From Sulfurimonas crateris (GTDB taxonomy: Bacteria > Campylobacterota > Campylobacteria > Campylobacterales > Sulfurimonadaceae): a stretch of DNA of 52,377 nucleotides. The notes beneath the pieces are model-generated. The model saw only the letters and a list, made by a program, of their open reading frames with translations. It made no database searches and was not told the origin of the DNA. Position numbers and translations under genes: made by a program. Shown here piece by piece: positions 7,110 through 43,807 of the stretch. Within the stretch, counting starts at the first letter, position 1. The number at the start of each line of letters is the position of its first letter. The DNA lies in contig CAMCYC010000011.1 in the NCBI GenBank assembly GCA_945883795.1, forward strand, positions 1 through 52,377, read 5' to 3'.

Positions 7110-8633
7110 TTATGGTTTTGAAATTTGTTTTAAAATAGTACGAATTCCATCAATAGAAATTTGAGCTGTTGAGGTTTCATGGGTAGCAAGTAAGCGGTCA
7201 ATCTCTTTTGTAGCTTGTTTAATTCTCATATTTTCACTCATCCCTTTGAGTTTATGCGCATCGTTTTGCCATAATGCAGGATTATTATTTTTAATTGCTT
7301 CTTGAATTTTTTCTAATAACTTTGCACTATCTACTATATAATCATTGAAAAGTTCATTAAAAAATTCAGTATCAATCCCTATCTCTTTAGCAGCTAAGAC
7401 TTTATTATATTCTCCACTAGATTGTGATGCAATTTCTTGAGGATTAATAAAAATTGCTTCATCTTTTGCATGTATTTTCTGATTTTCTGATGTATTGGTA
7501 CTCTTTTGTGGTTTGTTTTCTTTGTTAATATCTATAAAAATAGCATCATCATAATCACGCCCTTCAATAGAATCATCAACTATAGATACGGGAGTAGGAC
7601 TCTTTTTTATCTCTTCAACTACCGTATGGATGGAGAGTTTTGACATTATTGTATAAAATTGGTCTATATGCTCTTTGATTTCAAAAAGATTAGTGGAATT
7701 ATTTGCGACTGTTAAAACTTCAAAAGCATCTTCTATGCGTAAATTAGCTGCAACTCCTTTGAGTTTATGGGCTAAACTTTTAGCTTCAGTTATATTTTCC
7801 TCTTCAAGAGCTTTATAAATATTACTTCTAAAATCATTTGCTTGAATCATGAAATCTTCAAGAAATTCTTCAATTAAATCGATAGGTAATCCTAACGCAT
7901 CTGAAGCAATTCGAGGATTATAAATATAAATATTTTCTTCCTCTTGTATCACTTTTATCTCTTCAATTTTTTTCACTTTTAGAGAAATAGTAGGTATTGA
8001 TTTTATCTCTTTTTCTGGAACATAATCTTGTGTATCTAAGATTAAATCAATTTTTGGTTCTATAGCTTTTTTTTCTTCTGGAATCGTTTTTATTTGAACT
8101 TTTGGTATCTCTACAATAATCGGTTCAATAACTTCTACCTCACGACCAAGTTCTAAAAGAGCATTTGAAATAGCAACTTCAGGTGGTTGTATTAAAGGCT
8201 CTTTTTCTAAATTTTGCCCCTCAAAAAGAGCTTTTTTCGTTGTACTTTTTTCTGGTTCTGGTAAGTGTTGGACATCTTTTAAGAGTTTATCAAGTTCATC
8301 AGTTGGGACAGCTGTAGGAGTTAAGAGATTGACAAGATAAGCTGGTCTGGAAGGGTTGTCTATTAAATAGATTGTTTTTATTTCTAGCATAGCTTTATAG
8401 TATTTGTTGTTTGCGTGTATAAGCACTTTAAACTCTTTTTTTAAACTATCATATATAATAAAATCTATCCAATGTGTATTGACAAAATTATGAATATATC
8501 CTGGAATTTTTATAAATAAATCAGCAAAATCTGCTGCTTGAGCTCGAAGTTCTGCTAAATTTTTAAAGCCGATTTTTTTTAAATCTTGTTCATCCATCCC
8601 TATAAACTCTTTTTGAAAATTATAAATTAACAT
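7110..8633 (-). CDS. Double histidine-phosphotransfer (HPt) protein
   Basis: 507 residues. An N-terminal folded region (about 1-105, PAS-like size, with WIDFIIYDS and an ADFADLFIKIPGYIHNF segment) is followed by a long low-complexity linker rich in Glu, Lys and Ile (about 110-240), HPt domain 1 (about 250-340, phospho-acceptor His289 in AHKLKG), a second polar linker, and HPt domain 2 (about 420-505, His460, again AHKLKG). No kinase or receiver module is present. Its ATG abuts the stop of the PAS gene, with AGGGAA as ribosome binding site. It probably carries phosphate between the hybrid kinase and the single receiver of the same operon; why two HPt domains are needed is unclear. Confidence 0.82.
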   Translation of the reverse strand: MLIYNFQKEFIGMDEQDLKKIGFKNLAELRAQAADFADLFIKIPGYIHNFVNTHWIDFIIYDSLKKEFKVLIHANNKYYKAMLEIKTIYLIDNPSRPAYLVNLLTPTAVPTDELDKLLKDVQHLPEPEKSTTKKALFEGQNLEKEPLIQPPEVAISNALLELGREVEVIEPIIVEIPKVQIKTIPEEKKAIEPKIDLILDTQDYVPEKEIKSIPTISLKVKKIEEIKVIQEEENIYIYNPRIASDALGLPIDLIEEFLEDFMIQANDFRSNIYKALEEENITEAKSLAHKLKGVAANLRIEDAFEVLTVANNSTNLFEIKEHIDQFYTIMSKLSIHTVVEEIKKSPTPVSIVDDSIEGRDYDDAIFIDINKENKPQKSTNTSENQKIHAKDEAIFINPQEIASQSSGEYNKVLAAKEIGIDTEFFNELFNDYIVDSAKLLEKIQEAIKNNNPALWQNDAHKLKGMSENMRIKQATKEIDRLLATHETSTAQISIDGIRTILKQISKP

Positions 8634-18293: not shown

Positions 18294-18743
18294 ATGGATA
18301 AAGAGTTAGAAAATATTTTACATCGAGAAAATATAACGCTAGCACCGATAAAAAAAAGAGCAACTGCTTTTTTTATAGATGAGATGCTTTTATCTATTTT
18401 ATTGATTGTGGCATTGTGGGATTCTTTTACAAATGCTCAAACTATGGAGGAGATGATAAATCTCACGAACTCTTTTGTATTAGAGTATATGGCTATGAAG
18501 ATAATTTATCAAGCTTTTTTTGTGATGCAATATGGTGCTACGCTTGGTAAAATAATTATGAAAATTAGGGTTATAGAGATACAAACACTTGTAAATCCAA
18601 CATTTACCATCTCTTTAAATAGGGCAATATTCCGTGTAATAAGTGAGATGTTATTTTATCTTGGCTTTTTATGGGGGATGTTGGATAAATCACGCCAAGC
18701 TTGGCATGATAAAACAGCTAAAACTTTAGTGGTCAATGTTTAA
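18294..18743 (+). CDS. RDD-family membrane protein
   Basis: 149 residues with an N-terminal cytoplasmic stretch and three hydrophobic helices (about 29-45, 62-80, 108-128). It carries the family features: an early Arg and Asp pair (KKRATAFFIDEMLL), GATLGKIIMKIRV and the closing RQAWHDKTAKTLVV. The biochemical role of most RDD proteins is unknown; some take part in ion transport. Its ATG immediately follows the purD stop and its end overlaps lptD by eight bases, so it is expressed with them. A Helicobacter counterpart occupies the same position as I recall. Confidence 0.82.
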   Translation: MDKELENILHRENITLAPIKKRATAFFIDEMLLSILLIVALWDSFTNAQTMEEMINLTNSFVLEYMAMKIIYQAFFVMQYGATLGKIIMKIRVIEIQTLVNPTFTISLNRAIFRVISEMLFYLGFLWGMLDKSRQAWHDKTAKTLVVNV

Positions 18744-20883
18744 ACTCCTTTTTGTATTCATGATGCTTGTTCTCACTCTTTATTCGAGTGACAAGGTAGA
18801 GCTATATGCTGGTTCTATAGAATCCAAAGATAATATTATAGAAGCTATGGGTGGAGTAAGTGTTATTTATAGAGATTATATCTTAAATGCTACAAGTGCA
18901 GTTTATAATAGAAATACACAAGATTTAGAGCTTTTTGGAAATGTGCATGCTTTAAGTGGAGTAAATTATAAACTTTTAGGGGAGAGAGCCAAATTGAATT
19001 TGGCGAATAAAGAGCGAACTTTTCAACCTTTTTTTATGCTTGAAAAAAAATCAAATGTTTGGATTAGTGCGGATGAGGGATATTCCAAAGATAAAGATAC
19101 AAAAATTTCATCAGGTATCGCAAGTGGCTGTAACCCTGCTAATCCATTATGGAAAATGAAATTTTCCTCTTCAGAATATAACACAGATTCAAAGTGGCTG
19201 AGTCTTTATAATATGAGACTTTTTATTTATGATATTCCTGTTTTATATACTCCATATTTTGGATATTCACTCGATACAAAAAGAAGAACGGGACTTTTAA
19301 TCCCTGTTCTTGGCTTGTCCGATTTAGAGGGTATTTATTATGAACAACCTATTTTTGTGGCTGAACAGAATTGGTGGGATTTGGAGTTTAGACCTCAAGT
19401 AAGAACAAATCGTGGTTATGGTGGTTATAACACTTTTCGGTTTGTTGATAGTTATAATTCTAGTGGTGAAGTTACAACGGGTTATTTTAAAGAAAATCAA
19501 AGTTATTTTGATGAACAAAAGCTTGCCCATGACACACATTATGGTTTTAATTTTAAGTACAACAACACAAATATTATAAATGATTGGCTAGGTGTAAATT
19601 TAGAAGGGCAATCTGGTCTTTTTGCTGATTTAAAAAGCATGAATGATGTTGATTACATTAACCTTTCAACAAATGATACAACCATTAATTCTACAGCAAC
19701 ACAACAATTTTCAAGAATAAACCTTTTTTACAATACAGATAAGGATTATTTTGCTACATATTTGAAATATTATAAAAATTTAACGCTAGAAAATGATGAA
19801 AATACACTTCAAAAATTACCAACACTTCAATATCATCACTATTTAGAAACTTTTTTAGATAACCATTTGCTTTATAATATTGATTTACAAACCACAAATA
19901 TAAATAGAGAGATTAATAAAAGAGTGGTGCAAACTGATGTAAAAATACCTATAACACTTCAAACTTCAACCCTTGATGAATATTTGAGTTTGAGTTATGA
20001 AACTGCTCTTGCAGCACAACACTCCAATTTTCGAGGTACAGAAGAGGTTTTTACTGGGGATTATAAGAATGGATATTTTGCACGCTATTATCATGTTCTC
20101 TCAGAATCTACACAATTAACAAAAGCGTATGAAGATTATACGCATGTTATTGGCTTTGGTTCAACATTAACTTTAGTAGGTGCAGAGGTTCAAAATGGAT
20201 TTTATGATGATATAAAAGATTTTTGTTCCAAAATAGAGAATCAAGATAACCCGCAATGTGAGTTTTATAATATACCTACTATAACAGAGTATGCAAAAGT
20301 TAATTTTTCACAGTATCTTTTTGATGCTCAAAACAAACAGCTTTTATATCATAAATTGTCTCAAATTATTAACAATACAAAAGGTTCAAATCAGTTAGGA
20401 ATTTTAGAAAATGAGCTTGATTATCAAGTGACCGATAGCATAAACTATTACAATAACCTTTTTTATAGCTATTTAGAAAATTCTTTTTCAAAAACTTTTA
20501 ATGAGATTTCATATAATGCAGAAAAATTTACTATCCATTTGTCTCATTTGTATAAAGATACATTTTTAGCATCGACTTCGATATACACTCCTTATACAAG
20601 CTATCTAACATCTAGTGCAAGATATAATTATAATGAGCATTATTCTTATCATGTAGCCTATAATTATGATATAGAGAGTAGTTTAAAAAAAAGTATAGAA
20701 GTTGGATTTATGTATACAAAGCGATGCTGGGATTTTGGGATAAGATATTTAGAAAATGTACGGCCAATTTTAGGCGAAAGTTCATCCTCTTTTATAAATG
20801 ATAAATATATCTTTTTTACTATAGCATTAAGACCTTTCATGACATCTGTTAGAGGGAATGATTTTAGTGTTAGACTTCCTTAA
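18736..20883 (+). CDS. lptD: LPS-assembly outer membrane protein LptD
   Basis: LptD is the outer membrane barrel that delivers lipopolysaccharide to the cell surface together with LptE. 715 residues: signal peptide (about 1-17), OstA-type beta-jellyroll (about 20-110, with AMGGVSVIYRDYIL), then a long beta-barrel with many aromatic and Asn residues. YFGYSLDTKRRTGLLIPVLG is the conserved stretch leading into the barrel. Four Cys remain in the mature part: 132, 497, 508 and 664, enough for two disulfides, though not the Cys-Cys pair known from Escherichia coli. It overlaps the RDD gene by eight bases. LptE is not identifiable here; an lptM-like gene is at 11368-11550. Confidence 0.92.
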   Translation: MFKLLFVFMMLVLTLYSSDKVELYAGSIESKDNIIEAMGGVSVIYRDYILNATSAVYNRNTQDLELFGNVHALSGVNYKLLGERAKLNLANKERTFQPFFMLEKKSNVWISADEGYSKDKDTKISSGIASGCNPANPLWKMKFSSSEYNTDSKWLSLYNMRLFIYDIPVLYTPYFGYSLDTKRRTGLLIPVLGLSDLEGIYYEQPIFVAEQNWWDLEFRPQVRTNRGYGGYNTFRFVDSYNSSGEVTTGYFKENQSYFDEQKLAHDTHYGFNFKYNNTNIINDWLGVNLEGQSGLFADLKSMNDVDYINLSTNDTTINSTATQQFSRINLFYNTDKDYFATYLKYYKNLTLENDENTLQKLPTLQYHHYLETFLDNHLLYNIDLQTTNINREINKRVVQTDVKIPITLQTSTLDEYLSLSYETALAAQHSNFRGTEEVFTGDYKNGYFARYYHVLSESTQLTKAYEDYTHVIGFGSTLTLVGAEVQNGFYDDIKDFCSKIENQDNPQCEFYNIPTITEYAKVNFSQYLFDAQNKQLLYHKLSQIINNTKGSNQLGILENELDYQVTDSINYYNNLFYSYLENSFSKTFNEISYNAEKFTIHLSHLYKDTFLASTSIYTPYTSYLTSSARYNYNEHYSYHVAYNYDIESSLKKSIEVGFMYTKRCWDFGIRYLENVRPILGESSSSFINDKYIFFTIALRPFMTSVRGNDFSVRLP

Positions 20884-31537: not shown

Positions 31538-31900
31538 ATGGCTAAGGTATTAGTGGCTGATGATGCAGGTTTGATTAGGATGGTTGCAAAAAAGGCGATT
31601 GAAGAAGCAGGGCATGAGGCTATTGTAGTGGAAAACGGTGCCGAAGGTTTAGAAGCACTTAAGCACCATAAGTTTGCTTTAATTTTCAGTGATGTCAATA
31701 TGCCAGTGATGGGTGGACTTGAGATGGTCGAAGCAATTAAGCAAATAGCGGAGTTTAAATATATTCCTATAGTTATGTTGACAACTGAAAGTTCAGATGA
31801 ATTAAAAAGCAAAGGTAAAGCATTAGGAGTGAAAGCATGGATGCTTAAACCTTTTGATAAAGACAAGTTTTTAATGGTTATTCAAAAGTTAATAGAGTAG
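31538..31900 (+). CDS. cheY: Chemotaxis response regulator CheY
   Basis: A 120-residue single receiver domain: acidic pocket DD (8-9), phospho-acceptor Asp52 in FSDVNMP, Thr82/Thr83 in MLTTES and Lys104 in MLKPFD, all of the residues required for activation. AGGGAG lies seven bases before the ATG. It is the first gene of the operon and the likely main phosphate acceptor from the CheA encoded two genes on. Whether it addresses the flagellar motor or another output is not determined by the sequence. Confidence 0.93.
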   Translation: MAKVLVADDAGLIRMVAKKAIEEAGHEAIVVENGAEGLEALKHHKFALIFSDVNMPVMGGLEMVEAIKQIAEFKYIPIVMLTTESSDELKSKGKALGVKAWMLKPFDKDKFLMVIQKLIE

Positions 31901-31904
31901 TCTC

Positions 31905-32177
31905 ATGATATTTGAAACTGATTCCCTTAAAATTGAGCAGGTAGAAGAAGTTAAAAGTCAGTTGTTGGCTGCTTTAGAGAATGAAGCACCAATGATTACT
32001 CTGGACCTTTTATATGTAAATAAAGTCGACCTCTGTATCATACAACTTTTTTTAGCTTTACAAAAAAGTACACAAAAGAAAAATATCCAATTAACTTTAA
32101 AGAACTGTTCAGAAAGTTTTATAAATACTCTTTCCTTAAGTGGTTGTTCAGATTTATTAAAGTGTTCCCATGAGTGA
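31905..32177 (+). CDS. STAS-domain protein
   Basis: 90 residues, a single STAS (anti-sigma-factor-antagonist-like) fold: ITLDLLYVNKVDLCIIQLFLALQKS followed by IQLTLKNCSESFINTLSLSGCSDLL. In SpoIIAA-type proteins the segment after the Asp carries the phosphorylated Ser; here that site reads VDLCII, with no Ser or Thr, so classic phosphoregulation is unlikely. STAS proteins occur in some non-motility chemosensory clusters, as in Vibrio cholerae cluster III from memory. Overlaps cheA by eight bases. Confidence 0.82.
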   Translation: MIFETDSLKIEQVEEVKSQLLAALENEAPMITLDLLYVNKVDLCIIQLFLALQKSTQKKNIQLTLKNCSESFINTLSLSGCSDLLKCSHE

Positions 32178-34170
32178 AGAACTAGACTATTTTCACGAAG
32201 ATGCCAAAGAGCAACTTCAAATGATGGAAAGTGCTTTACTTGATGCGATGGATAAAGGTTCAAATACTGAGTATATAGGAACTATTTTTCGTGCTATGCA
32301 TACTATTAAAGGTGTTGCTGGCATGTTTAGTTTTGATGCGATTATCTCTTTTACGCATATTGCAGAAAATTTGATGGACAGTGTTCGCAATGGTAAAATT
32401 GTCTTAGGTGAAAATTTATTAATGCTTCTTTTGGAGTGTAAAGACCATGTCAATGAGTTGGTAAATTGTGCTGTAGAATCAACTGACTTACCTCCACAAA
32501 CACTTGAAAAAGATAAATTGCTCAAATCAACAATTAATGCCTATTTAAATAATTCTCAGGCTCATTTGACACCAAAAGAATCTCAAAATATAGAAACTCC
32601 TAATACAAATTTATGGCATATCTCCCTTGCTTTAAAAGATTCTTTTTTTGATAGTGGTATGGATTTAATTTCTATTATAGCTTTTTTGAAACGATTAGGA
32701 ACTTTGCACAAAGTGCATCCTTTATTGGAAAAACTTCCAACTTTAGAAACTATTGACCCATATAAACCTTATCTTAGCTTTGAAATAGAGTTTGAGGGGG
32801 ATGTAACAAAAGAGACTTTGGTTGAGGTATTTGAATTTGTTGAGGATGATATAGAACTAGAAGTTTTTTCTGTTAAAGAGTTTTTAAATACTCAAGAAGA
32901 AAAGAGTATAGAAGAAGTTCAACAAATTGAAGTAAGTGTAGCACAGCCAGTAGAATCCCCAAAAATAGAACCTCTAAAACAAGAGTTACCAGATAAAAAA
33001 GTAACTCCTGTTTCTCAATTTTTGCGTGTTGATTCGAGTAAAATTGATATTCTTATTGATACAATTAGTGAGATGGTGATTGCTAATGCTAAAATCAACC
33101 GTTATGTTGAAGAAAATAGTGCAGTAGAACTTGAAGAAATTTCGATAGAACTTAGCACACTTCTTGAAGGGTTGCGTAATAATGTGATGAATATTCGCAT
33201 GGTTCCTGTAGGTGAATCATTTGAAAAATTTCGTAGAGTTGTGAATGATGTAGCGTATAGACTGGGTAAAAAAATAAACTTCGTCATAAAGGGTGGAGAA
33301 ACAGAACTTGATAAAACAGTGATAGAAAAAATTGCTGACCCGCTTTTACATATGTTGCGAAACTCTGTTGACCATGGGATAGAATTACCTCAAAAAAGGG
33401 TTGAACAAGGTAAATCTGAATATGGAAATGTAGAACTTCGTGCTTATCCAGAATCTGGTTCTATTGTGATTGAGATTGAAGATGATGGTAAAGGGTTGGG
33501 ACTTGATGCTATTTTGGCAAAAGCAAAAGCAAAAGGGATAATCACTCCAACACAACAACTCTCAGATGCAGAAGCGTATAAACTGATTTTTGAACCAGGT
33601 TTTTCAACAGCTGAAGTCGTCTCAGATATCTCAGGGCGTGGTGTTGGGATGGATGTGGTTCGTAAAAATATAGAAGCACTCAAAGGTGATGTAGAGTTAC
33701 AAAGCTATGTTGGAAAAGGGAGTTGTTTTACAATCCGTTTGCCTTTGACTTTGGCAATTATTGATGGCTTTTTATTTCAGGTTGGAAAAACAAATTATAT
33801 TATTCCACTTGACATGGTCTCGGAAGTGATAGAATATACACAACAATATCATGTAAGTATGAAAGACTCAAAAGTATTTAATCTTCGTGGTACTTTGCTC
33901 CCATTTTTGGATGTTCGAAGTTATTATCAAGAAATGAGTTGTCAAGTGTGTGAGAGACAAAATATTATTGTTGTAAAGTATGGTCGTCATAAAATGGGAC
34001 TTTTAGTGGATGAGCTTTTGGGAGAATATCAAACCGTGATTAAGCCTTTGGGTAAACTTTTCGTGAATGCACCTGCACTTTATGGAGCTTCAATTTTAGG
34101 AAGTGGAGAAATCGCCTTGATATTTGATATTCCAGCTTTATTTGAAATGGTAAATATAATAAGGGAGTAA
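32170..34170 (+). CDS. cheA: Chemotaxis histidine kinase CheA (without receiver domain)
   Basis: 666 residues. P1 HPt domain (about 1-105) with phospho-acceptor His44 in MHTIKGVAG; a P2-like or linker region (about 150-280, rich in Glu and Val); P3 dimerisation helices (about 285-350, RVDSSKIDILIDTISEMVIANAKI); HATPase domain with N-box around 393-403 (HMLRNSVDHG), G box near 438 (EIEDDGKG) and GRGVGMDVV near 489; and a C-terminal CheW-like P5 domain (about 530-660). The protein ends after P5 (MVNIIRE): it lacks the C-terminal receiver that the CheA of Campylobacter and Helicobacter motility clusters carries. It overlaps the STAS gene by eight bases. Confidence 0.96.
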   Translation: MSEELDYFHEDAKEQLQMMESALLDAMDKGSNTEYIGTIFRAMHTIKGVAGMFSFDAIISFTHIAENLMDSVRNGKIVLGENLLMLLLECKDHVNELVNCAVESTDLPPQTLEKDKLLKSTINAYLNNSQAHLTPKESQNIETPNTNLWHISLALKDSFFDSGMDLISIIAFLKRLGTLHKVHPLLEKLPTLETIDPYKPYLSFEIEFEGDVTKETLVEVFEFVEDDIELEVFSVKEFLNTQEEKSIEEVQQIEVSVAQPVESPKIEPLKQELPDKKVTPVSQFLRVDSSKIDILIDTISEMVIANAKINRYVEENSAVELEEISIELSTLLEGLRNNVMNIRMVPVGESFEKFRRVVNDVAYRLGKKINFVIKGGETELDKTVIEKIADPLLHMLRNSVDHGIELPQKRVEQGKSEYGNVELRAYPESGSIVIEIEDDGKGLGLDAILAKAKAKGIITPTQQLSDAEAYKLIFEPGFSTAEVVSDISGRGVGMDVVRKNIEALKGDVELQSYVGKGSCFTIRLPLTLAIIDGFLFQVGKTNYIIPLDMVSEVIEYTQQYHVSMKDSKVFNLRGTLLPFLDVRSYYQEMSCQVCERQNIIVVKYGRHKMGLLVDELLGEYQTVIKPLGKLFVNAPALYGASILGSGEIALIFDIPALFEMVNIIRE

Positions 34171-34172
34171 AT

Positions 34173-35054
34173 ATGAGTATGAATGAAAAAGAGGTTGTGT
34201 TTGAAGAGCATGAATTAATTGTGAGCATGACTGATGTAAAGGGTAATATTCTGTATGCAAATGATATTTTTTGTAAAATAGCAGGCTATTCCAGAGATGA
34301 ATTACTTGGACAGCCTCACAATATGGTTCGCCATCCAGATATGCCTAGAGTTGTATTTAAACTATTATGGGAAACAGTACTCTCTGGTAAATTCCTTTCA
34401 GCCTTTGTAAAAAATAAAACAAAAGATGGAAATTATTATTGGGTTAAAGCATATGTCGCACCTATTATAGAAAATGGAAAAATTGTAAGTATCACTTCTT
34501 ACCGCCGTCCAGTCAACGATTTTGTAAAAAGAGAAGTTTCCAAAACATATAAAGTTTTGCTTGATTATGAAAGAACACATTCGATGAGTGAAACAGTTGA
34601 TTTTTTTTCATCATTTTTAAAAGAGCGAAATTTAACTTATCCACAATTTATTGATAGACTAGCACAAGACCGCTCTATTAGTAGTCCTGCAGCTTTGAAT
34701 ATTGATGTGGATGGATATTACATTGACCATATTATTTTTAAAACAGCAATTACTCGTGGTATATCTTTGGGTAAAAAAGATATTAAGGTAACTGAACCAT
34801 GTTGTTGTAATCTTGGTAAAAAATTAAAAACTCTTGAGGGGATGTCGTTTACTACGCACCTTTCATGGTCTAAAGTGCATCATTATCACAATCATGTACA
34901 TGGTTTGATGAAAGAGTATGTTAATAGAGCGCATGGTGGTGCATTAAAAGATGAATTAGATGGACTTTTGTCAAATGTTCAAACTGATACGATAAAATTG
35001 TTTGATATGCTTAATGATGTAATTGATAATTATGTAGAAGAAAAGGGTCTGTAA
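34173..35054 (+). CDS. PAS-CZB sensor protein
   Basis: 293 residues, soluble. N-terminal PAS domain (about 8-120) of the Aer/CetB type: [50 protein letters not shown]. Then a helical linker (about 120-180) and a C-terminal domain whose His/Cys pattern fits the chemoreceptor zinc-binding (CZB) fold: DH at 185-186, Cys212 in CNLG (after Cys210 and Cys211), and His residues at 236-243 (VHHYHNHVH). CZB domains bind zinc and sense hypochlorite or zinc; PAS of this type binds FAD. It has no methyl-accepting domain and is followed, sharing one base, by a soluble receptor, so the two probably form a split Aer-like sensor, as CetB and CetA do. Confidence 0.78.
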
Positions 35055-36883
35055 TGTTTGAAATTTTGATGAATAAAAAATATTTGAAAGATATATCTTT
35101 CGCAGAAAAAGCACTAGATACATTAATAAATGGTGATTTTGAGAAAAATTTTGTCACCCCAAATGAAGAGTTTACCCTCTTATTTTCAAAGATGAACACT
35201 CTGCGTATGAAAATAAAAAATATCAATGAAGATGTTACTTCTATGAATGAATCAGTTTTAAAGGGTACTTTGACAAATCGTATAGATATGGTAAAGCATA
35301 AAGGAACATTTGGTTTACTGAGTAATGGCGTGAATTATAATGTTGATTTAATTGCATGTTTATTGAGTGATATCTCTAGTGTTATGGATAGAGTCTCAGG
35401 AGGTGATTTTTCTGCAAGAGTGACGACTACCTATTATGGTGAATTTGATAAACTAAAAAATGCAGTAAATCATGTAATTGAGAGTCTCCATGGGCTTGGA
35501 GTGGATTCAAAACTTGCTACAACTGCCATGCGTCAGGGGAATTTGACAGTTCGACTTGATTCTTCAAAATATGAAGGAGAATATGCTCTTATATGTGCGG
35601 GTCTTAATGATACTATGGATGCTGTTGTGGGTGTTTTACAAAATGCAACTGATAATTTAGTAAAACTAAGTCAAGGTAATTTTAGTGCTAAAATTGAAAC
35701 CGCTTATGTTGGGGATTATGCTCTTATAGCAGAAGGGGTAAATAATCTCGCCTTCATGATGGAAAATTCTATTGATGAACTTTCAAGAGTTATGCAAGAG
35801 CTTAGTAAGGGAAAACTCTCAGAGCGTATAAATATAGAACTTCCCGGAGATATGCAAGCAATAAAACAATCAACCAATAGTTTTATTGAGATACTTAACG
35901 CCATGATTTTTGAGATTCGTGACACACTGCGTGAGATGCAAGGTGGAAATTTAACTAAAAAAATTACTCTCGATATGCCAGGTGAACTTGTAGAAATCAA
36001 AAACTCTGTGAACTCTTTTATAGAATCTCTTTCTGAAATTATTACCCAGATTGTGATGAGTGCCAATGAAATTAGTACAGCTTCAAGTGAAGTAAGTAGC
36101 TCTTCTCATTCTATCTCTTCTGGTGCAGAGACTCAAGCTTCTTCTATTGAAGAAACAACAAGTTCTATAGAAGAGATGAGTGGCTCTGTTTCAGAAACAG
36201 CAGAGAATGCAAAACTTACAAATAGTCTTGCTTCAGATGCTTCTACTATGGCTCAAAAAGGGGGAGAAGCGGTAAGCAAAACTGTACTTGCTATGCATGA
36301 TATCTCTACTAGAATTAAAGTTATTGAAGATATTGTCTATCAAACAAATCTTTTAGCACTCAATGCTGCAATTGAAGCGGCTCGTGCTGGTGAACATGGA
36401 AAAGGATTTGCAGTAGTTGCCGCTGAGGTGAGAAAACTTGCAAAACGCTCCCAAATTGCAGCACAAGAGATAAGTAAAATAACAAAAGATAGTGTATTTA
36501 TCTCTGAAGAAGCGGGAAATCTTATCTCGGCAACCCTTCCAAAGATTGAAGAAACAGCAAAACTTGTTAGGGATATTACAGCAGCTGCAAGTGAACAAGC
36601 AATAGGAGTTGAGCAAATTTCTATTGCCATGAATCAGCTCGACCAAGTAACACAAGAAAATGCTTCATCTTCACAACAACTCGCAACGATTGCAGAGGAG
36701 CTTAATGGTCAAGCTTCATCATTAACAGATATGATGAAATTTTTTAAACTCAATACGCAAGGGATTAACCCTTCTAAAAAAGAGATTCCAAATAATAGTA
36801 CTCGAAAATCAAAAGATTATACACTTGGAAATAAAAGTAAAATAGAAGAGAGTCTCGATTTACAAAATTTTGAACGCTTTTAG
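35054..36883 (+). CDS. Soluble methyl-accepting chemotaxis protein with seven HAMP-like units
   Basis: 609 residues with no transmembrane segment and no ligand-binding domain. Seven HAMP-like units repeat every 44-46 residues, marked by a Gly in a G-[DNTK]-[LF]-[ST] step at residues 27, 71, 117, 162, 208, 253 and 298. The signalling domain runs from about 335 to 565, with the conserved tip [23 protein letters not shown] (split at 425-447) and [18 protein letters not shown], flanked by Gln/Glu-rich methylation helices. A 35-residue polar tail ends in NFERF, resembling the NWETF CheR/CheB-docking pentapeptide. It overlaps the PAS-CZB gene by one base and precedes cheW by eight. Confidence 0.93.
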
Positions 36884-36891
36884 GAGAGGAG

Positions 36892-37404
36892 ATGTTTTCG
36901 CAAATATTCGTGGATGATGAAGATGATATGGCAATTAAAGAGGGTCCGCAATATTTGCTCTTTTATTTACAATCGAATCTTTTTGCACTCAGAGGTGAGT
37001 TAATCTCTGAGATTGTTGAATTGCCAGATATCACCAAAGTTCCATGGATGCAACCTTGCGTAAAAGGTATTTGTAATATTCGTGGAGCTATTGTTGGTGT
37101 TTTGGATATCTCTGCACGCCTAATGCAAGGCGAATTTGTTCAAACAGAGCAAACTTCATTGATAATAGTTTCAACTTTGTATGATGGACTTATACAAAAA
37201 ATTGGACTTATTATTGATAAAGTGTATGAGGTTGAAGTATTTGAAGCGCATGAATTGCAGTTAGTTCCAAATTTTGGTTTACCAGTGAAGTCATATTATA
37301 TTGAAGCGATGTTACCTTATAAAGGAGATTTTATTCCTCTTCTTTCTTTAGATAAGCTAGCTGACCTTGAATTTTTGAGTCAAAGAGAGAATCCACATGG
37401 TTGA
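36892..37404 (+). CDS. cheW: Chemotaxis coupling protein CheW
   Basis: 170 residues. The CheW fold begins after a short acidic lead (VDDEDD) with QYLLFYLQSNLFALRG, then the usual VPWMQPCVKGICNIRGAIVGVLDISARL, QTSLIIVSTLYDGLIQKIGLIIDKVYEV and PYKGDFIPLLSLDKL. CheW links receptor tips to CheA in the array. AGGAGAGG lies three to nine bases before the ATG. The end overlaps cheV by eight bases. Confidence 0.94.
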   Translation: MFSQIFVDDEDDMAIKEGPQYLLFYLQSNLFALRGELISEIVELPDITKVPWMQPCVKGICNIRGAIVGVLDISARLMQGEFVQTEQTSLIIVSTLYDGLIQKIGLIIDKVYEVEVFEAHELQLVPNFGLPVKSYYIEAMLPYKGDFIPLLSLDKLADLEFLSQRENPHG

Positions 37405-38329
37405 GAATGTAACATCTATAAATGATATTGAAGCGGATGAAGATGAGATAGACCTTATTAAGCTTGTCAGTAGTAACGCAGATATAGCAAACCAATATGT
37501 CATTTTTGAAGGTTCAAATGGGGAGTATTACGGTATTAATGTTGCCAAAGTTGAAGAATTGTTTATCTTTGAAAAAAGTAATATGGTTGTCAATAATAAT
37601 GTTGATGACCTCATTATTGGTATTGCCCAAATCCGTTCTCACATGACCCCTTTAATTTATTTTGATGAGTGGTTTGGAAATAAGAGTTTAGAAGATGAAT
37701 TGTATGAACTCCTTATCTTATGTTATTTTTCTGATGAGTATTTGGGTTTAATTGTCAAACAAGTATTTGATATTGTGAGTATTAATCCTGAGCAAATGTA
37801 TGCGAATGCAAAACAAAATGAACTTACAACTTTTATAGCAAAAATAAGTGCAGGAAAGAAAGAGTTTTTATGTACTATTTTTGATACAGATAGACTTTTG
37901 TATGATTTATATGGTGAAGAGAAAATGAGTGAAGAGAAAGGTTTTGTACCAATCAAAAGTGAAAAAATGGTTTTATTTGCAGATGATAGTAAATTAGTAC
38001 GCAAAATGGCGCATGAAGCTTTTGAAAAACTAGGGATTAAATTTAAAATTTTTCAAGATGGTCAAGAGTTATTAGAAGCATTAGAAGAGATAGCTGTTGG
38101 AGATATAGGTCTATTTTTACTTGATGTTGAGATGCCTAGAAAAAGTGGAATTGATGTCATAGAGACACTTTCTAAACAATCAAAATATTCAAAGATACCT
38201 ATTGTTGTTCATACAAATATGGCAAATGCTTCTATTCGCCACTTTTTGGATATAAAAAATGTATCACAGACTATAGGCAAAGTAGATTTTAAAACAATAG
38301 AAACTTCAATTAGGAATTATATACTATGA
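37397..38329 (+). CDS. cheV: CheV (CheW-receiver fusion)
   Basis: 310 residues: CheW-like domain (about 30-180, QYVIFEGSNGEYYGINVAKVEELFIF, IIGIAQIRSHMTPLIYFDEWFG) followed by a receiver domain (about 195-310, VLFADDSKLVRKM, acceptor Asp in LFLLDVEMPRKSG, Thr in VVHTNM, Lys in IGKVDF). CheV proteins act as couplers whose phosphorylation tunes adaptation; several are known in Helicobacter and Campylobacter. It overlaps cheW upstream by eight bases and cheR downstream by four. Confidence 0.93.
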   Translation: MVENVTSINDIEADEDEIDLIKLVSSNADIANQYVIFEGSNGEYYGINVAKVEELFIFEKSNMVVNNNVDDLIIGIAQIRSHMTPLIYFDEWFGNKSLEDELYELLILCYFSDEYLGLIVKQVFDIVSINPEQMYANAKQNELTTFIAKISAGKKEFLCTIFDTDRLLYDLYGEEKMSEEKGFVPIKSEKMVLFADDSKLVRKMAHEAFEKLGIKFKIFQDGQELLEALEEIAVGDIGLFLLDVEMPRKSGIDVIETLSKQSKYSKIPIVVHTNMANASIRHFLDIKNVSQTIGKVDFKTIETSIRNYIL

Positions 38330-39135
38330 GTAATCTTGTAGAAATAATTTTACAAGATAATGAATTTGCACTTATTCAAAAGTTAATTTTTAACACAGTT
38401 GGAATTACTCTTGATGATAGTAAAAAAAGCTTAGTGAAAAATAGACTTTTAAAGCGTTTAAATTTTTATGGTCTCAAGAAATTTAGTGATTATTTACGGA
38501 TTGTTCAATACAATCGTGATGAAATTGCAGAAATGGTCAATCAAATCACAACAAATGAAACTTATTTTTTTCGGGAACAATCCCATTTTGATTTTTTAGT
38601 CAAAACAATAGAATCCTTAAAATCTAACAGCATGATTCGAGTATGGAGTGCCGCTGCATCTCTTGGCGCAGAGGCATATTCTATTAGCATGGTGTTAGAT
38701 AGTATTCTTGGTGCTTCAAAATACCAAGTTTTGGGAACTGATATCAATACACAAGTTTTAGAAATTGCAAAAAAAGGGGTGTATCCTTTGCCATGGGTGG
38801 ATAAAATCCCACTTTCTTATAAACAGGCTTATTGTTTAAAAGGCAAAAATCAGTATGAAAAGCAATTTTTAATAACGCCTGAACTTCAAAAAAATGTTCG
38901 TTTCTCACAAGCAAATTTACTTGAAGTTCAAACAGGGATAGGAAAATTTGATATTATATTTTTACGCAATGTACTTATCTATTTTAATGATGAAATTAAA
39001 GCTTTGGTTATTGAAAACATTCTTAGAAATCTTCATGAAGGGGGATATTTGATAATTTCACTCACCGAGAATTTACGCAATATAAACAATCCACATTTAA
39101 AACAAATAGATACTTCTATTTATAAAAAGGTATAA
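38326..39135 (+). CDS. cheR: Chemotaxis protein methyltransferase CheR
   Basis: CheR methylates receptor glutamates using S-adenosylmethionine. 269 residues: N-terminal helical domain with GITLDDSKKSLVKNRLLKRL, QITTNETYFFREQSHFDFL, SAM-binding IRVWSAAASLGAEAYSISMVL, VLGTDINTQVLEIAKKGVYP, and FDIIFLRNVLIYFN. It has a beta-subdomain-sized insertion between ITPELQKNVRF and the core, where pentapeptide-dependent CheR proteins bind NWETF. The receptor two genes upstream ends with NFERF. It overlaps cheV by four bases. Confidence 0.95.
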   Translation: MSNLVEIILQDNEFALIQKLIFNTVGITLDDSKKSLVKNRLLKRLNFYGLKKFSDYLRIVQYNRDEIAEMVNQITTNETYFFREQSHFDFLVKTIESLKSNSMIRVWSAAASLGAEAYSISMVLDSILGASKYQVLGTDINTQVLEIAKKGVYPLPWVDKIPLSYKQAYCLKGKNQYEKQFLITPELQKNVRFSQANLLEVQTGIGKFDIIFLRNVLIYFNDEIKALVIENILRNLHEGGYLIISLTENLRNINNPHLKQIDTSIYKKV

Positions 39136-39137
39136 AA

Positions 39138-40034
39138 ATGCTAGGACATAATTATAAAAATTTTCTTTCTCTCTTAGCAAAAGCATGCCATTTATTGGTC
39201 TATGATGATGGAAAAATTTTAAAGAATTATAAAGATATTTTAAATACTTTTGCATTATATCGTTATAATAATATCAATGATGTATCAGTATCTCATGTAT
39301 CAAATATGTTTATTTCACAAAAAGTTGATATGGTTTTAATTTATTCCACTGATTACCAAAAAGTGCTTGAATTGTGTGAAGAGATACTTTTACATGATAA
39401 AAATATGGTAATAACAGTTATACTTGAAGAACATAATGATATAAGTTTAAAAATTGCTAATCTTGTAGATACAATAGTATATACTCCTTTTAGTATAGAA
39501 ATTTTAAATAAAAAAATAAGTATTGCTTTGAGTGCAAAATTTATGATTTATGAGATGACACATACAATAAACACGCATAAAAAGTTTTTGGATGATACAG
39601 GGATAGAACCATTTTTGAATGAATATCAAGAGGCAATTAAAATTCTTTTTGAGACCTTGTCTAGTTTAATAGAAAGGCTTAAAAGTGGTGAACTCAGTCA
39701 TGAACTTTTTTGTGAAATAGCGGATGAAATAGAGTTGATAGGGACAATTTTTAATTATCATCATTATACTGCACGAGTTAGTTTGATATTTAATCAAATG
39801 GCAGGATTTTTACGAATGTATAGTTTTGATGATATTGATATTGTAACACTTGAGGGGTTTGATTATCTTGTAGAAATTTTGCAAGATATTTGTAATTATA
39901 TAAACGATTTTTTTATCAAACGAATTTTTTCTGATGTGTATGTTTTTGAACACTCTTTACTTGATTCTATAAATTTTATGATAAATCGTCTCAATAATAA
40001 TAAAGATATTGAAAGTAAATTGGAGTATTTTTAG
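39138..40034 (+). CDS. Degenerate receiver plus helical domain protein
   Basis: 298 residues. The N-terminal half (about 10-130) reads as a receiver fold that has lost its chemistry: the acceptor strand is DMVLIYSTDY without the usual Asp, the switch strand is VITVILEEHN without Thr/Ser, and the Lys of the final loop is replaced (VYTPF instead of xxKPF). The C-terminal half (about 145-298) is all helical, with YLVEILQDICNYINDFFIKRIFSDVYVFEHS. That region aligns by eye with the C-terminal end of the protein encoded at 41078-42181. Abuts cheB. No family recognised; probably a scaffold or an inhibitor in the array. Confidence 0.72.
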   Translation: MLGHNYKNFLSLLAKACHLLVYDDGKILKNYKDILNTFALYRYNNINDVSVSHVSNMFISQKVDMVLIYSTDYQKVLELCEEILLHDKNMVITVILEEHNDISLKIANLVDTIVYTPFSIEILNKKISIALSAKFMIYEMTHTINTHKKFLDDTGIEPFLNEYQEAIKILFETLSSLIERLKSGELSHELFCEIADEIELIGTIFNYHHYTARVSLIFNQMAGFLRMYSFDDIDIVTLEGFDYLVEILQDICNYINDFFIKRIFSDVYVFEHSLLDSINFMINRLNNNKDIESKLEYF

Positions 40035-41066
40035 ATGATTAAAGTGATGGTAATTGATGATTCTATGGCAGTGAGGCGTGGTTTTGCAAAACTCATTAGT
40101 AAAATGGTGGGAGTGGAATTGATTGCAGAAGCGAGTAATCCCATAGATGCATTTGAAGAGTTTAAAAAAGTGGGACTTCCTGATTTATTTATATTAGATA
40201 TTGAGATGCCAAAAATGGATGGAATCACTTTTTTAAGAAAAATCTCTGAACAAAAGCCTATACCTGTGATTATATGTTCTACTCTTGTTGCTGAGGGTTC
40301 TGATGCCGCAATTGATGCTTTACGCTATGGTGCTGTTGATATTATTGAAAAACCAAAAGTAAATCTTGAGAGTTTCTTTTCAGATTATCAAGAGGAACTC
40401 TCGGAGAAAATAAAATCTGCAATTGGGGCGCATGTAAAAGTTATAAAAACTATTAATCAGCCACTTATTACAAATGTAAAAGATATAAACTCTCTTTCGC
40501 CAAGCAAAAAAATTGTAGCGATTGGTTCTTCTACAGGTGGTGTTCAAGCTTTGGAAACAATTGTGTTAGGACTTAAACCTCATCATGCAGGGATTGTAGT
40601 CACGCAACATATGCCTCAAGGTTTTACCGCTTCATTTGCAAAAAGATTAAATCAAATTGCACCTTATTGTTATGTAAAAGAGGCTCAAAATGATGATATT
40701 ATTAACGATGGACAAATGCTTATAGCTCCAGGTGGGATTCACATGGAAGTCTATAAGATAGGAAATGTCTACAAAGTGCACTTACGAGATTTTCCTAAAG
40801 TGAATTCTCATAAACCAAGCGTAAGTGTTTTATTCAAATCGGTAGCAAAAACTGCTCTTGCTAATGCTCAGGGCTATATATTAACTGGCATGGGAAGTGA
40901 TGGAGCTACAGGTTTACAAATGATGCATGCAGCTGGTGCAAAAACTTTTGGAGAGAGTGCAAAATCAGCAGTTGTTTATGGCATGCCACGAGTTGCGTAT
41001 GAGATGGGTGCAGTGGATGAGGAACTTGAAATTGGACAAATTGCACAACATATAAATAAAATATAA
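40035..41066 (+). CDS. cheB: Chemotaxis methylesterase/glutamine deamidase CheB
   Basis: 343 residues: receiver domain (about 1-125, acceptor Asp55 in FILDIEMPKMDG) joined to the esterase domain (about 155-340) with the catalytic triad Ser166 in IGSSTGG, His192 in TQHMPQGF and Asp287 in TGMGSDGA. CheB removes methyl groups when phosphorylated by CheA, opposing CheR. The ATG follows the previous stop codon with no gap. No CheD or CheC gene is in the window. Confidence 0.96.
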   Translation: MIKVMVIDDSMAVRRGFAKLISKMVGVELIAEASNPIDAFEEFKKVGLPDLFILDIEMPKMDGITFLRKISEQKPIPVIICSTLVAEGSDAAIDALRYGAVDIIEKPKVNLESFFSDYQEELSEKIKSAIGAHVKVIKTINQPLITNVKDINSLSPSKKIVAIGSSTGGVQALETIVLGLKPHHAGIVVTQHMPQGFTASFAKRLNQIAPYCYVKEAQNDDIINDGQMLIAPGGIHMEVYKIGNVYKVHLRDFPKVNSHKPSVSVLFKSVAKTALANAQGYILTGMGSDGATGLQMMHAAGAKTFGESAKSAVVYGMPRVAYEMGAVDEELEIGQIAQHINKI

Positions 41067-41077
41067 GGATAAAGTAT

Positions 41078-42181
41078 ATGGAAAGTAATATTTTACAGAT
41101 GATTAAAGAGGACGCTAAGAATGTAAATATACTTATTGCAGAAGATGATTTAGTTATGCAAGGGTTATATAAGCGACTTTTTAAAGATATGTTCGCTAAC
41201 TTCACTATGGTCAATGATGGTGCTCAAGCTTATGAATATTTTTGTGATGAAAAAAATCCTTCTATTGACCTTATTATCACAGACAATTATATGCCAAACA
41301 TGGGCGGAATAGAGTTGGTTGAAAAGATTCGTGAGATAAATTTCAATGTGCGTATTATTGTCATGACAAGTGAACATGATTTAACAGCGATTAAAAAATA
41401 TACTCTAAGTGGTGTTGATGCGATTTTGCCAAAGCCATACGATGAAGAGTTGACCATGAGAGTGCTTCAAAGAACACTCCATTATATTGGTGAAAATAAA
41501 TTTTTGGAGCATTATATTGGTCAATTAGAGTTAATGGCTAAAGAAAATGTTGTGCGAAAAGGGGAAGAGTTAAAAAATCGTACTCTTGAAGAGCGAAGTG
41601 TCAAAATGAAAAAAGCTGAGAGTGTACAAAAAATATCATCAGAATCTCCAATAGATAAAAATACTCTTATTCAAAAATACAATATTCGTCAAAGTATTAA
41701 AGCGATGGAAGATGTGAATGTTGAAGATTTTGATATTCGTGGAAAAGAACGGATGGATGATTTTCGGGAAAAACTTTCAAGTTATGAATTATTGCTTTAT
41801 TCTATAGAAAATAACGATGTAGCCTCTTTACGATTGGTTTTAGAGATTGTACTTGAAGGGGTAAAAGAACTTATAGATGCACTTGATATGATTGGAATAT
41901 TCCCAGTTGCTTCTCATGCAGCTACTAATCTTATCATTTTTATAGAAAATTTAGGGGATGAAGCCTTAAAAGACAAAGATAAACAAGAACTATTTATAGA
42001 TATTTTGGCAACTATGCTTGGAGATTTTGATAAATGGATAGATTTGGTTTTTATCTCAAAATCAACAGATAATATTCATTATTTTGATGCTTCTTTTGCA
42101 AATACTTGTTTAGAATTAGAGATGGTTTTTAAAATAAATAAACCAAATACTCAAGATGAAGATAATTTAGAATTTTTTTAA
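41078..42181 (+). CDS. Receiver domain protein with C-terminal helical domain
   Basis: 367 residues: intact receiver (about 14-135, acceptor Asp69 in IITDNYMP, Thr97 in VMTSEH, Lys119 in LPKPYD), a charged coiled linker (about 150-235), and a helical C-terminal domain (about 240-360: LLLYSIENNDVASLRLVLEIVLEGVKEL, ELFIDILATMLGDFDKWIDLVFISKS, DASF). The C-terminal domain resembles that of the pseudo-receiver protein on the other side of cheB. No DNA-binding, GGDEF or EAL domain, so this is a protein-interaction output. Function unknown. Confidence 0.8.
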   Translation: MESNILQMIKEDAKNVNILIAEDDLVMQGLYKRLFKDMFANFTMVNDGAQAYEYFCDEKNPSIDLIITDNYMPNMGGIELVEKIREINFNVRIIVMTSEHDLTAIKKYTLSGVDAILPKPYDEELTMRVLQRTLHYIGENKFLEHYIGQLELMAKENVVRKGEELKNRTLEERSVKMKKAESVQKISSESPIDKNTLIQKYNIRQSIKAMEDVNVEDFDIRGKERMDDFREKLSSYELLLYSIENNDVASLRLVLEIVLEGVKELIDALDMIGIFPVASHAATNLIIFIENLGDEALKDKDKQELFIDILATMLGDFDKWIDLVFISKSTDNIHYFDASFANTCLELEMVFKINKPNTQDEDNLEFF

Positions 42182-42196
42182 TAGGTGGTTAGACCT

Positions 42197-43807
42197 TTGA
42201 TAAACAAAGATGATTTGGAATATGAACTTTATGAGATATTTAAAGAACAATTTATAAACAACATGGTTCAAATTGAGAACAATATTCTCGAATTGGAAAA
42301 TAGTGAACATGATAAAAAAGCAATCAATAATTTATTTAGAATATTTCATACTCTCAAAGCAAACAGTCAATATTTTCATTTTGAAAGTATGTCAATTGTT
42401 GCAGATAAAACTGAAAAAGTACTTGCTTCACTTAGAGAAGGGAGTGCATTTAGTGATATTAGCGTTATTAAGTGGTTAATAAAAGTTCAAGAACAATGTT
42501 TTATCTGGTCTCATGAGATGGAAAATGATGCAACAGAGTTTTCTCAACCAACTCCATCATTATTAAATGAGATAGAGATTAAGGATTCTCATACAAATGC
42601 ATTATCTCTTCTAAAACAACTTTCTGTTTTGTATTTTGACATCAATCAAAAAAGGTCTCAAAAATTACTCTCAGCATTAGAAAAAAATTTTTTAAAAGTA
42701 AAAGAGGTGCATACTCTGGATGATTTTGAACAAAAATTAATTCTTGAACAACCAAATATATGTATCATAAATATTGGTAAAGACACGATTAAAGCATCAA
42801 AATTATCTCAACAGCATGTTCCAAACTCTGCAATAATTGTTGTTTTTGATAAACTTGACCATAGCACTTATCTTAAGCTTGGAGTGCATGGGATATATCA
42901 TACAATTTTGAATCCAATTATGGGCGATGAACTCAAACGAGTACTTTTATCTGTTATAGATTCACATTTTACTTCGAGACAGTTTATTATTACAAACCAG
43001 AAAATAAAAGATTTTATAGAAACATTACAACCCTTGTCTGTATCAATTTTACAAATACAACGAATTTGTGATGATGAAGAAGCTTCTATAAAAGAGCTTA
43101 TTAAAGCGGTGAAACTTGACCCAGTTATTTCAGGAATGATACTCAAAACTGCCAAAAATCCAATATATGGTTTGGAAGAGATTAGTACAATAGACCAAGC
43201 TGTAAGTATTTTTGGAAAAACAAGAGTGAAAGCGATTAGCTTAAGTCAAATGATTGATGCTTTTGGTAGAATGGATTTGAGTCCATATAATATAACGGAA
43301 TCAATTTTCTCAAATGTAGCAGCTTTACGACTTATGCTGATGATAAAATGGTATTCTAAAGTATCTATCTCTTCGTTAGCAATTTTATCAACTACTGCAA
43401 TATTAGGGAATATAGGGCAACTTCTTATTGCACGAGAGATTAATGTATTGAAGAAAAAAACTGTTTTTTTACAAAATATACAAGATAACACTATACAAAT
43501 TGCAGAAGAAAAATGTATGCGTACAACGACAGCGTCTGTTAGCAGTGATATTTTAAGCTATTGGCAGTTAGAGATGGATATTGTCGATTCAGTCCGTTTT
43601 AGTGATAATCCAGAAGATGGACCAGAACAGATTTACTCTCTTTGTCTTGCTAATCATGTGGTTTATAGATTAGTACAACTTGACGGAAAAGTACTCAAAA
43701 AAGTTCCAAAAAATATCGAAAAATTGCTCCAAAAAAATAAACTTCGTGTGGAGCCTTTACAAAAAGCGTTAGATGCCATTAACAATATTACTCAAGAGAG
43801 AAATTAA
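42197..43807 (+). CDS. HPt - degenerate receiver - HDOD fusion protein
   Basis: 536 residues from TTG 42197, which has AGGTGG eight bases upstream; a GTG at 42185 is in frame but lacks a ribosome binding site. N-terminal HPt domain (about 5-115) with the phospho-acceptor His51 in FHTLKANSQYFHF; a middle part (about 135-260) with receiver-like pattern (FLKVKEVHTLDDFEQKL, ICIINIGKDTI, AIIVVFDKLDHS) but no acceptor Asp or loop Lys; and a C-terminal HDOD domain (about 275-480: SILQIQRICDDEEASIKELIKAVKLDPVISGMIL, STIDQAVSIFGKTRVKAISLS, ILGNIGQLLI). HDOD domains are related to HD phosphohydrolases but lack the metal site. This is the last gene of the operon. Confidence 0.78.
   Translation: MINKDDLEYELYEIFKEQFINNMVQIENNILELENSEHDKKAINNLFRIFHTLKANSQYFHFESMSIVADKTEKVLASLREGSAFSDISVIKWLIKVQEQCFIWSHEMENDATEFSQPTPSLLNEIEIKDSHTNALSLLKQLSVLYFDINQKRSQKLLSALEKNFLKVKEVHTLDDFEQKLILEQPNICIINIGKDTIKASKLSQQHVPNSAIIVVFDKLDHSTYLKLGVHGIYHTILNPIMGDELKRVLLSVIDSHFTSRQFIITNQKIKDFIETLQPLSVSILQIQRICDDEEASIKELIKAVKLDPVISGMILKTAKNPIYGLEEISTIDQAVSIFGKTRVKAISLSQMIDAFGRMDLSPYNITESIFSNVAALRLMLMIKWYSKVSISSLAILSTTAILGNIGQLLIAREINVLKKKTVFLQNIQDNTIQIAEEKCMRTTTASVSSDILSYWQLEMDIVDSVRFSDNPEDGPEQIYSLCLANHVVYRLVQLDGKVLKKVPKNIEKLLQKNKLRVEPLQKALDAINNITQERN

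Follow-up and report, generated by a model that had tools for sequence, protein, structure and literature searches.

The stretch of DNA analysed here (the window) comprises 52,377 nucleotides of the Sulfurimonas crateris genome and carries a chemosensory operon whose end encodes a three-domain protein. The genes and features needed below are as follows:

31538–31900, + strand: CheY-like receiver gene, head of the cluster
31902–32169, + strand: STAS-domain gene lying between those for CheY and CheA; its limits are not fixed
32170–34170, + strand: CheA (P1, dimerisation, ATPase and CheW domains), candidate phosphodonor
34173–35054, + strand: PAS (plus weak CZB) protein
35054–36883, + strand: chemoreceptor with repeated HAMP domains
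36892–37404, + strand: CheW
37397–38329, + strand: CheV (CheW plus receiver)
38326–39135, + strand: CheR
39138–40034, + strand: uncharacterised 298-aa protein ending in LEYF, marker of the operon type
40035–41066, + strand: CheB
41078–42181, + strand: receiver plus uncharacterised helical domain, ending in NLEFF; alternative phosphate partner
42183–42188, + strand: Shine-Dalgarno-like AGGTGG, 8 nt ahead of TTG 42197
42197–43807, + strand: HPt–pseudo-receiver–HDOD protein of 536 aa with the TTG start, 540 aa with GTG 42185
42224–42523, + strand: HPt domain of CheA P1 type with four predicted helices (about residues 11–113 in GTG numbering; coordinates approximate)
42347–42349, + strand: His51 (His55 in GTG numbering), the presumed phospho-acceptor, with Lys58 and Ala59 next in the motif FR..H..KA
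42590–42988, + strand: degenerate receiver domain, residues 136–268; the phospho-Asp position is Asn196 (42770–42772)
43031–43612, + strand: HDOD domain (Pfam HDOD 69 bits, cut-off 22.9; closest solved relative Cj0248)

Intergenic gaps from CheA to the HPt–HDOD gene range from −8 to +15 nt, and smpB begins 45 nt past the stop of the latter, in agreement with the first-pass annotation, which took it for the last gene of the operon. A terminator scan of the operon stayed at the chance level, with 4 sites against an expected 4.7; promoter-like sites exceeded theirs only somewhat, with 93 against 67.3.

The PAS protein directly adjoins the chemoreceptor with repeated HAMP domains (34173–36883), a pair reminiscent of split redox receptors of the CetA/CetB kind. 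The 298-aa protein (39138–40034) and the receiver protein (41078–42181) share a C-terminal [LVI][ED][FY]F, present in 10/10 sequences examined. The C-terminal domain of the receiver protein was matched in 52 of 397 genomes of the class; in the two examples examined it closes receiver proteins of ~430 aa with the terminus EIEFF, and the HPt–HDOD protein of genome G079 also terminates in TEFF. The idea of a link between the unknown proteins of the operon and C. jejuni CheO found no support. Assignment to the F9 class looks doubtful: CheW3 and DosM, which define this class in the available text of PMC9321776, are not what the operon shows. Elsewhere in the window, a protein of 507 aa whose sole Pfam matches are two Hpt domains (7110–8633, − strand) adjoins a hybrid histidine kinase (4788–7100, − strand), and a 715-aa protein without a Pfam match at E ≤ 0.01 (18736–20883) lies upstream of a PNPase gene.

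The HPt–HDOD gene lies in an open frame running from GTG 42185 to 43807, 540 codons without interruption. TTG 42197 appears to be the better start, as AGGTGG sits 8 nt upstream and the equivalent Met starts the two closest relatives. The gene is under purifying selection: compared with its counterpart in genome G055, dN/dS is ~0.17, with dS near saturation, and 0.13–0.25 by domain. The 540 open codons, this ratio and the existence of full-length relatives rule out a chance match or a mis-called ORF. HPt, receiver-like middle and HDOD were all found within the 42197–43807 ORF, and the three-part fusion claimed at first pass is real. A predicted model of the whole protein reached a mean pLDDT of 45.7, too poor for judging domain packing; it is fair only over residues ~11–130 (block means 60–84), and the fold search covered mainly residues 3–124.

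The Pfam score of the HPt domain lies at the threshold (24.4 bits by hmmscan and 27.3 by six-frame search; cut-off 24.6). Among the relatives it reaches 32.7 bits in G031, falls under the cut-off in G082, G063 and G077 and is unreported in G079. Both phmmer and profile searches match the window domain to CheA P1 structures. A profile of the N-termini of ten relatives retrieved 11 PDB sequences at E ≤ 0.001, comprising seven CheA P1 domains and four designed proteins; natural HPts other than those of CheA were not found at this threshold. The predicted model consists of four helices with His55 (GTG numbering) on the second, and it fits CheA P1 domains at Z 13.3–15.5, HptB at 9.7 and Ypd1 at 8.8. 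Certain designed bundles also fit it at Z 12–15, hence the fold by itself is no proof of an HPt. Taken with the sequence matches, the model indicates that the domain is of CheA P1 type and that other HPts are more distant from it.

Residues F51, R52, H55, K58, A59 and E77 (GTG numbering) are invariant in the alignment of ten relatives, with the Glu at H+22 kept in 10/10. The motif FR..H..KA is retained in 12/12 full-length relatives, including G141 and G424, or in 12/13 when the more distant G088 is counted. An HPt with an apparent phospho-acceptor at His51, as the first-pass annotation had it, is thus borne out by this conservation and by the CheA P1 matches; the helix bundle whose failure to be predicted would have spoken against it was predicted, and His51 is conserved in the relatives. 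At H+4 the window HPt carries Ala in place of the usual Gly. In the available text of PMC6341664, Gly occupies this position in 87% of HPts, being usual and not obligatory, Ala occurs in 0.75% of ~10,000 HPts, and Ypd1 G68A keeps 82% of phosphorylation and 80% of relay. By analogy, Ala at H+4, though rare, is compatible with phosphotransfer. Altogether, we consider that His51 is probably phosphorylated.

In the middle of the window protein Pfam returns no match. Response_reg exceeds its cut-off in the middles of two relatives (51.0 and 54.5 bits), and hhalign gives a probability of 92.7 for the relatives' middles (9/10 relatives taken in) against four receivers of the window. A middle profile retrieves 191 PDB sequences at E ≤ 0.1, and the best 60 of these 191 are almost all receivers. 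Sequence comparison therefore marks the middle as a true receiver homologue. In the window protein it is dead: Asn replaces the phospho-Asp (Asn196), and Asn also replaces the Lys. Inspection by eye of 12 genes found Asp at the phospho-acceptor position in five (G031, G047, G082, G063 and G141), Asn in five, Ser in one and Cys in one, with the complete set of acid pair, Asp and Lys in none of the 12. The earlier description of a receiver-like middle lacking acceptor residues thus holds for the window protein but not family-wide, since 5/12 keep the Asp.

A degenerate receiver in every relative examined, together with the weak Pfam HPt score, would suit a protein in which neither HPt nor receiver is phosphorylated any longer and both only bind proteins, bringing the HDOD domain to CheA or to receivers. 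The relative in G088 (locus L138, 746–2266, 507 aa) has the same layout with both HPt and receiver degenerate before the HDOD domain; since its HPt motif is lost too, the layout can outlast the motif. Against mere docking stands the invariance of the His, the Lys, the Ala, the Phe-Arg pair and the H+22 Glu in relatives down to ~25% identity, and we regard this explanation as improbable.

To our knowledge, neither the input nor the mechanism of HDOD domains is settled in general. The genome encodes seven HDOD matches, six of them above the cut-off. By sequence, the best solved match of the window domain is Cj0248 (PDB 1vqr; E 1.4e-11), one of the single HDOD proteins of Campylobacterota; in contrast to the window protein, Cj0248 is an HDOD alone, a 297-aa chain. 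As far as the available portions of the papers go, reported HDOD phenotypes mostly concern motility, which is altered by GsmR, Cj0248 and SadB (PMC11004494, PMC6543031, PMC4114195) and by PSPTO_4229 (PMC11813219). The domain is regarded as a non-catalytic partner binder, in part after the accessible text of PMC6543031 and PMC4114195. The whole SadB protein is reported as a c-di-GMP binder in the part of PMC6543031 at hand, hence nucleotide binding by HDOD may be part of the output. For the window protein the output may be motility or another array behaviour, which we advance with some reserve.

Several known proteins share parts of this design. GsmR (Xanthomonas) and DVU0330 (Desulfovibrio) combine a receiver with HDOD, and GsmR affects flagellar gene expression (PMC6543031, PMC4114195, available text); unlike in the window protein, whose receiver is dead, an HPt goes unmentioned for either in the accessible portions of the sources. 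Aspartate-less receivers joined to HDOD, as in the window, are described in PMC4395418, where HDOD is among the enriched outputs; the term HPt is absent from the available text of that paper, and the fusion genes lose the Asp in only 7/12. Within the open-access literature searched, in the portions available, an HPt–HDOD fusion was not found described, and the first-pass remark of knowing no characterised protein of this arrangement, without ruling one out, stands within that scope.

The window HPt resembles a stand-alone 133-aa HPt encoded in the same genome (BLAST E 4e-10; hhalign probability 99.5). This P1-type protein (L102, contig C3:39203–39556) lies between panB-like and trpA-like genes, named by eye. 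Short stand-alone HPts of the class (130–190 aa) occur in at least 140/397 genomes among the matches listed (one with stops), as against at least 7/397 for the fusion, and a copy is among the matches listed for six of the seven fusion-bearing genomes of the class, G063 not being among those listed. They belong to the same HPt family as the fused domain and differ from it in having no receiver or HDOD and in carrying Ser at H+4; H-N-x-K-S is found in 24/24 examined. A tree of 41 rows (12 fused HPts, 24 of the at least 140 stand-alone ones and, for CheA P1, just the five domains of the source genome, on long branches) splits fused and stand-alone HPts from the CheA P1 domains with support 100/99; the stand-alone group receives 94/90, and the fused HPts do not form one clade. 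A recent duplication of a CheA P1 is consequently not favoured, and on sequence grounds the fused HPt belongs to the stand-alone family widespread in the class.

That this family is widespread without any output domain would suit another possibility, namely that the HPt takes or passes phosphate among receivers, whether those of the operon (CheY, CheV, CheB and the one at 41078) or others from outside it. The HDOD domain would then only position the protein, with no phospho-control. A separate HPt with an intact motif and the several receivers encoded in the operon are in keeping with such a sink or hub. Yet HPt and HDOD stay joined in 12 genes from several families under purifying selection, which would be needless for a mere sink, and we deem this explanation unlikely.

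The distribution of the fusion was surveyed within the source lineage. Nine full-length HPt–HDOD matches were found among 99 relatives, and surveys of 397 class genomes, scoring the best 3 candidates per genome in one and the best 10 in another, gave at least seven genomes with the full-length fusion (G000, the source of the window, G031, G047, G055, G063, G141 and G424); a copy in G060, cut by a contig end, was left out of the counts. A scan of the genome contigs for the architecture found one locus, and three matching records in a plasmid collection match the HDOD part only. Among 12 distinct genes, three lie in this chemosensory operon type (the window, G055 and G424) and nine elsewhere, among housekeeping genes, the neighbours in G141 being judged by eye. 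PAS and receptor matches lie 3–4 kb from the gene in G079, where the sequence retrieved around it showed nothing matching CheA. Simple sigma-54 and sigma-28 promoter patterns ahead of the orphan copies showed nothing consistent.

Conversely, the operon marker (39138) is present in 8/397 genomes, and in five of these eight operons no HPt–HDOD match other than CheA appears within the fetched stretch. Found in 3/8 such operons, the HPt–HDOD gene is not a core component. The last gene of the G016 operon is the receiver gene, and in G424 the receiver gene has no match at its place while the HPt–HDOD gene is retained. The G424 copy (L038, 6001–7577) is frameshifted, a genuine lesion and an assembly error being indistinguishable here.

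These counts bear on whether the protein works outside the window's array, its operon position being an accident of insertion and other kinases (a further CheA or the HPts of hybrid kinases) feeding it. The orphan position of 9/12 genes and the absence of the gene from 5/8 operons agree with this, as do the five CheA-like proteins that the genome encodes alongside several other HPt proteins. On the other side, the gene is kept at the operon end in three genomes whose copies share ~60–67% protein identity, with downstream genes that differ between the window and G055. Operon and gene are also associated across the 397 genomes (3 with both, 5 with just the operon and 4 with just the gene, giving Fisher P = 1.8e-4). 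As all three genomes with both belong to a single clade, the value is not independent evidence. We find work outside the array somewhat doubtful; it overlaps with the other explanations, as it concerns who feeds the protein and they concern how the protein works. Since most relatives keep the fusion outside chemosensory operons, its tie to the operon looks like local recruitment: judging from sequence comparisons, the fusion looks like a portable module of conserved design, and the simplest reading is that it was added to the chemosensory operon in one lineage.

We hypothesize, tentatively, that phosphohistidine gates the protein as an HDOD regulator. The HPt is real, of P1 type and with a conserved His, hence a CheA or a receiver could pass phosphate to it. 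His51 would most likely be phosphorylated by the operon's CheA, whose ATP-binding domain would work in trans, or by a phosphorylated receiver of the operon, although we hold a donor from the operon itself to be a possibility somewhat short of an even call. The phosphate would stay off the attached receiver, whose acceptor is lost. Phospho-His51 may then alter the packing of the HPt on the dead receiver, or binding through it, and the altered contact would free or block the non-catalytic HDOD domain, which would work by binding a partner. Whether the HPt controls HDOD in this way seems to us nearly an even question. Points against a gated HDOD are the 9/12 genes outside such operons, the 5/8 operons lacking the gene, the degenerate HPt of G088, the frameshift in G424, the threshold Pfam score and the poor model of the whole protein. 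The first-pass suggestion that array phosphate steers the HDOD domain is accordingly sustained in part: the P1-type HPt and its conserved His stand, whereas the tie to CheA is confined to the window, G055 and G424.

In R. sphaeroides, CheA3 receives its phosphate in trans from a different CheA. The CheA P1 domains, including that of CheA3 (PDB 3kyi, 3kyj), are the best structural and profile matches of the window HPt and resemble it in fold, FR..H..K motif and length; the window HPt differs in having no kinase, in Ala for Gly at H+4 and in being joined to a receiver remnant and HDOD. We speculate, as a less likely version of the gated regulator, that the array reaches an HDOD effector directly through a P1 broken out of CheA, with the receiver acting as a sensor of the neighbouring phospho-His and no Asp acceptor involved.

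Phosphorelay effectors are normally switched on the Asp of a receiver. If the phosphohistidine-gated reading is true, an effector switched on the His of an HPt would represent a different wiring. One operon encodes both the input residue and a candidate donor, which makes the question of HDOD input testable with purified proteins. A second uncharacterised player is the stand-alone HPt that is widespread in the class.
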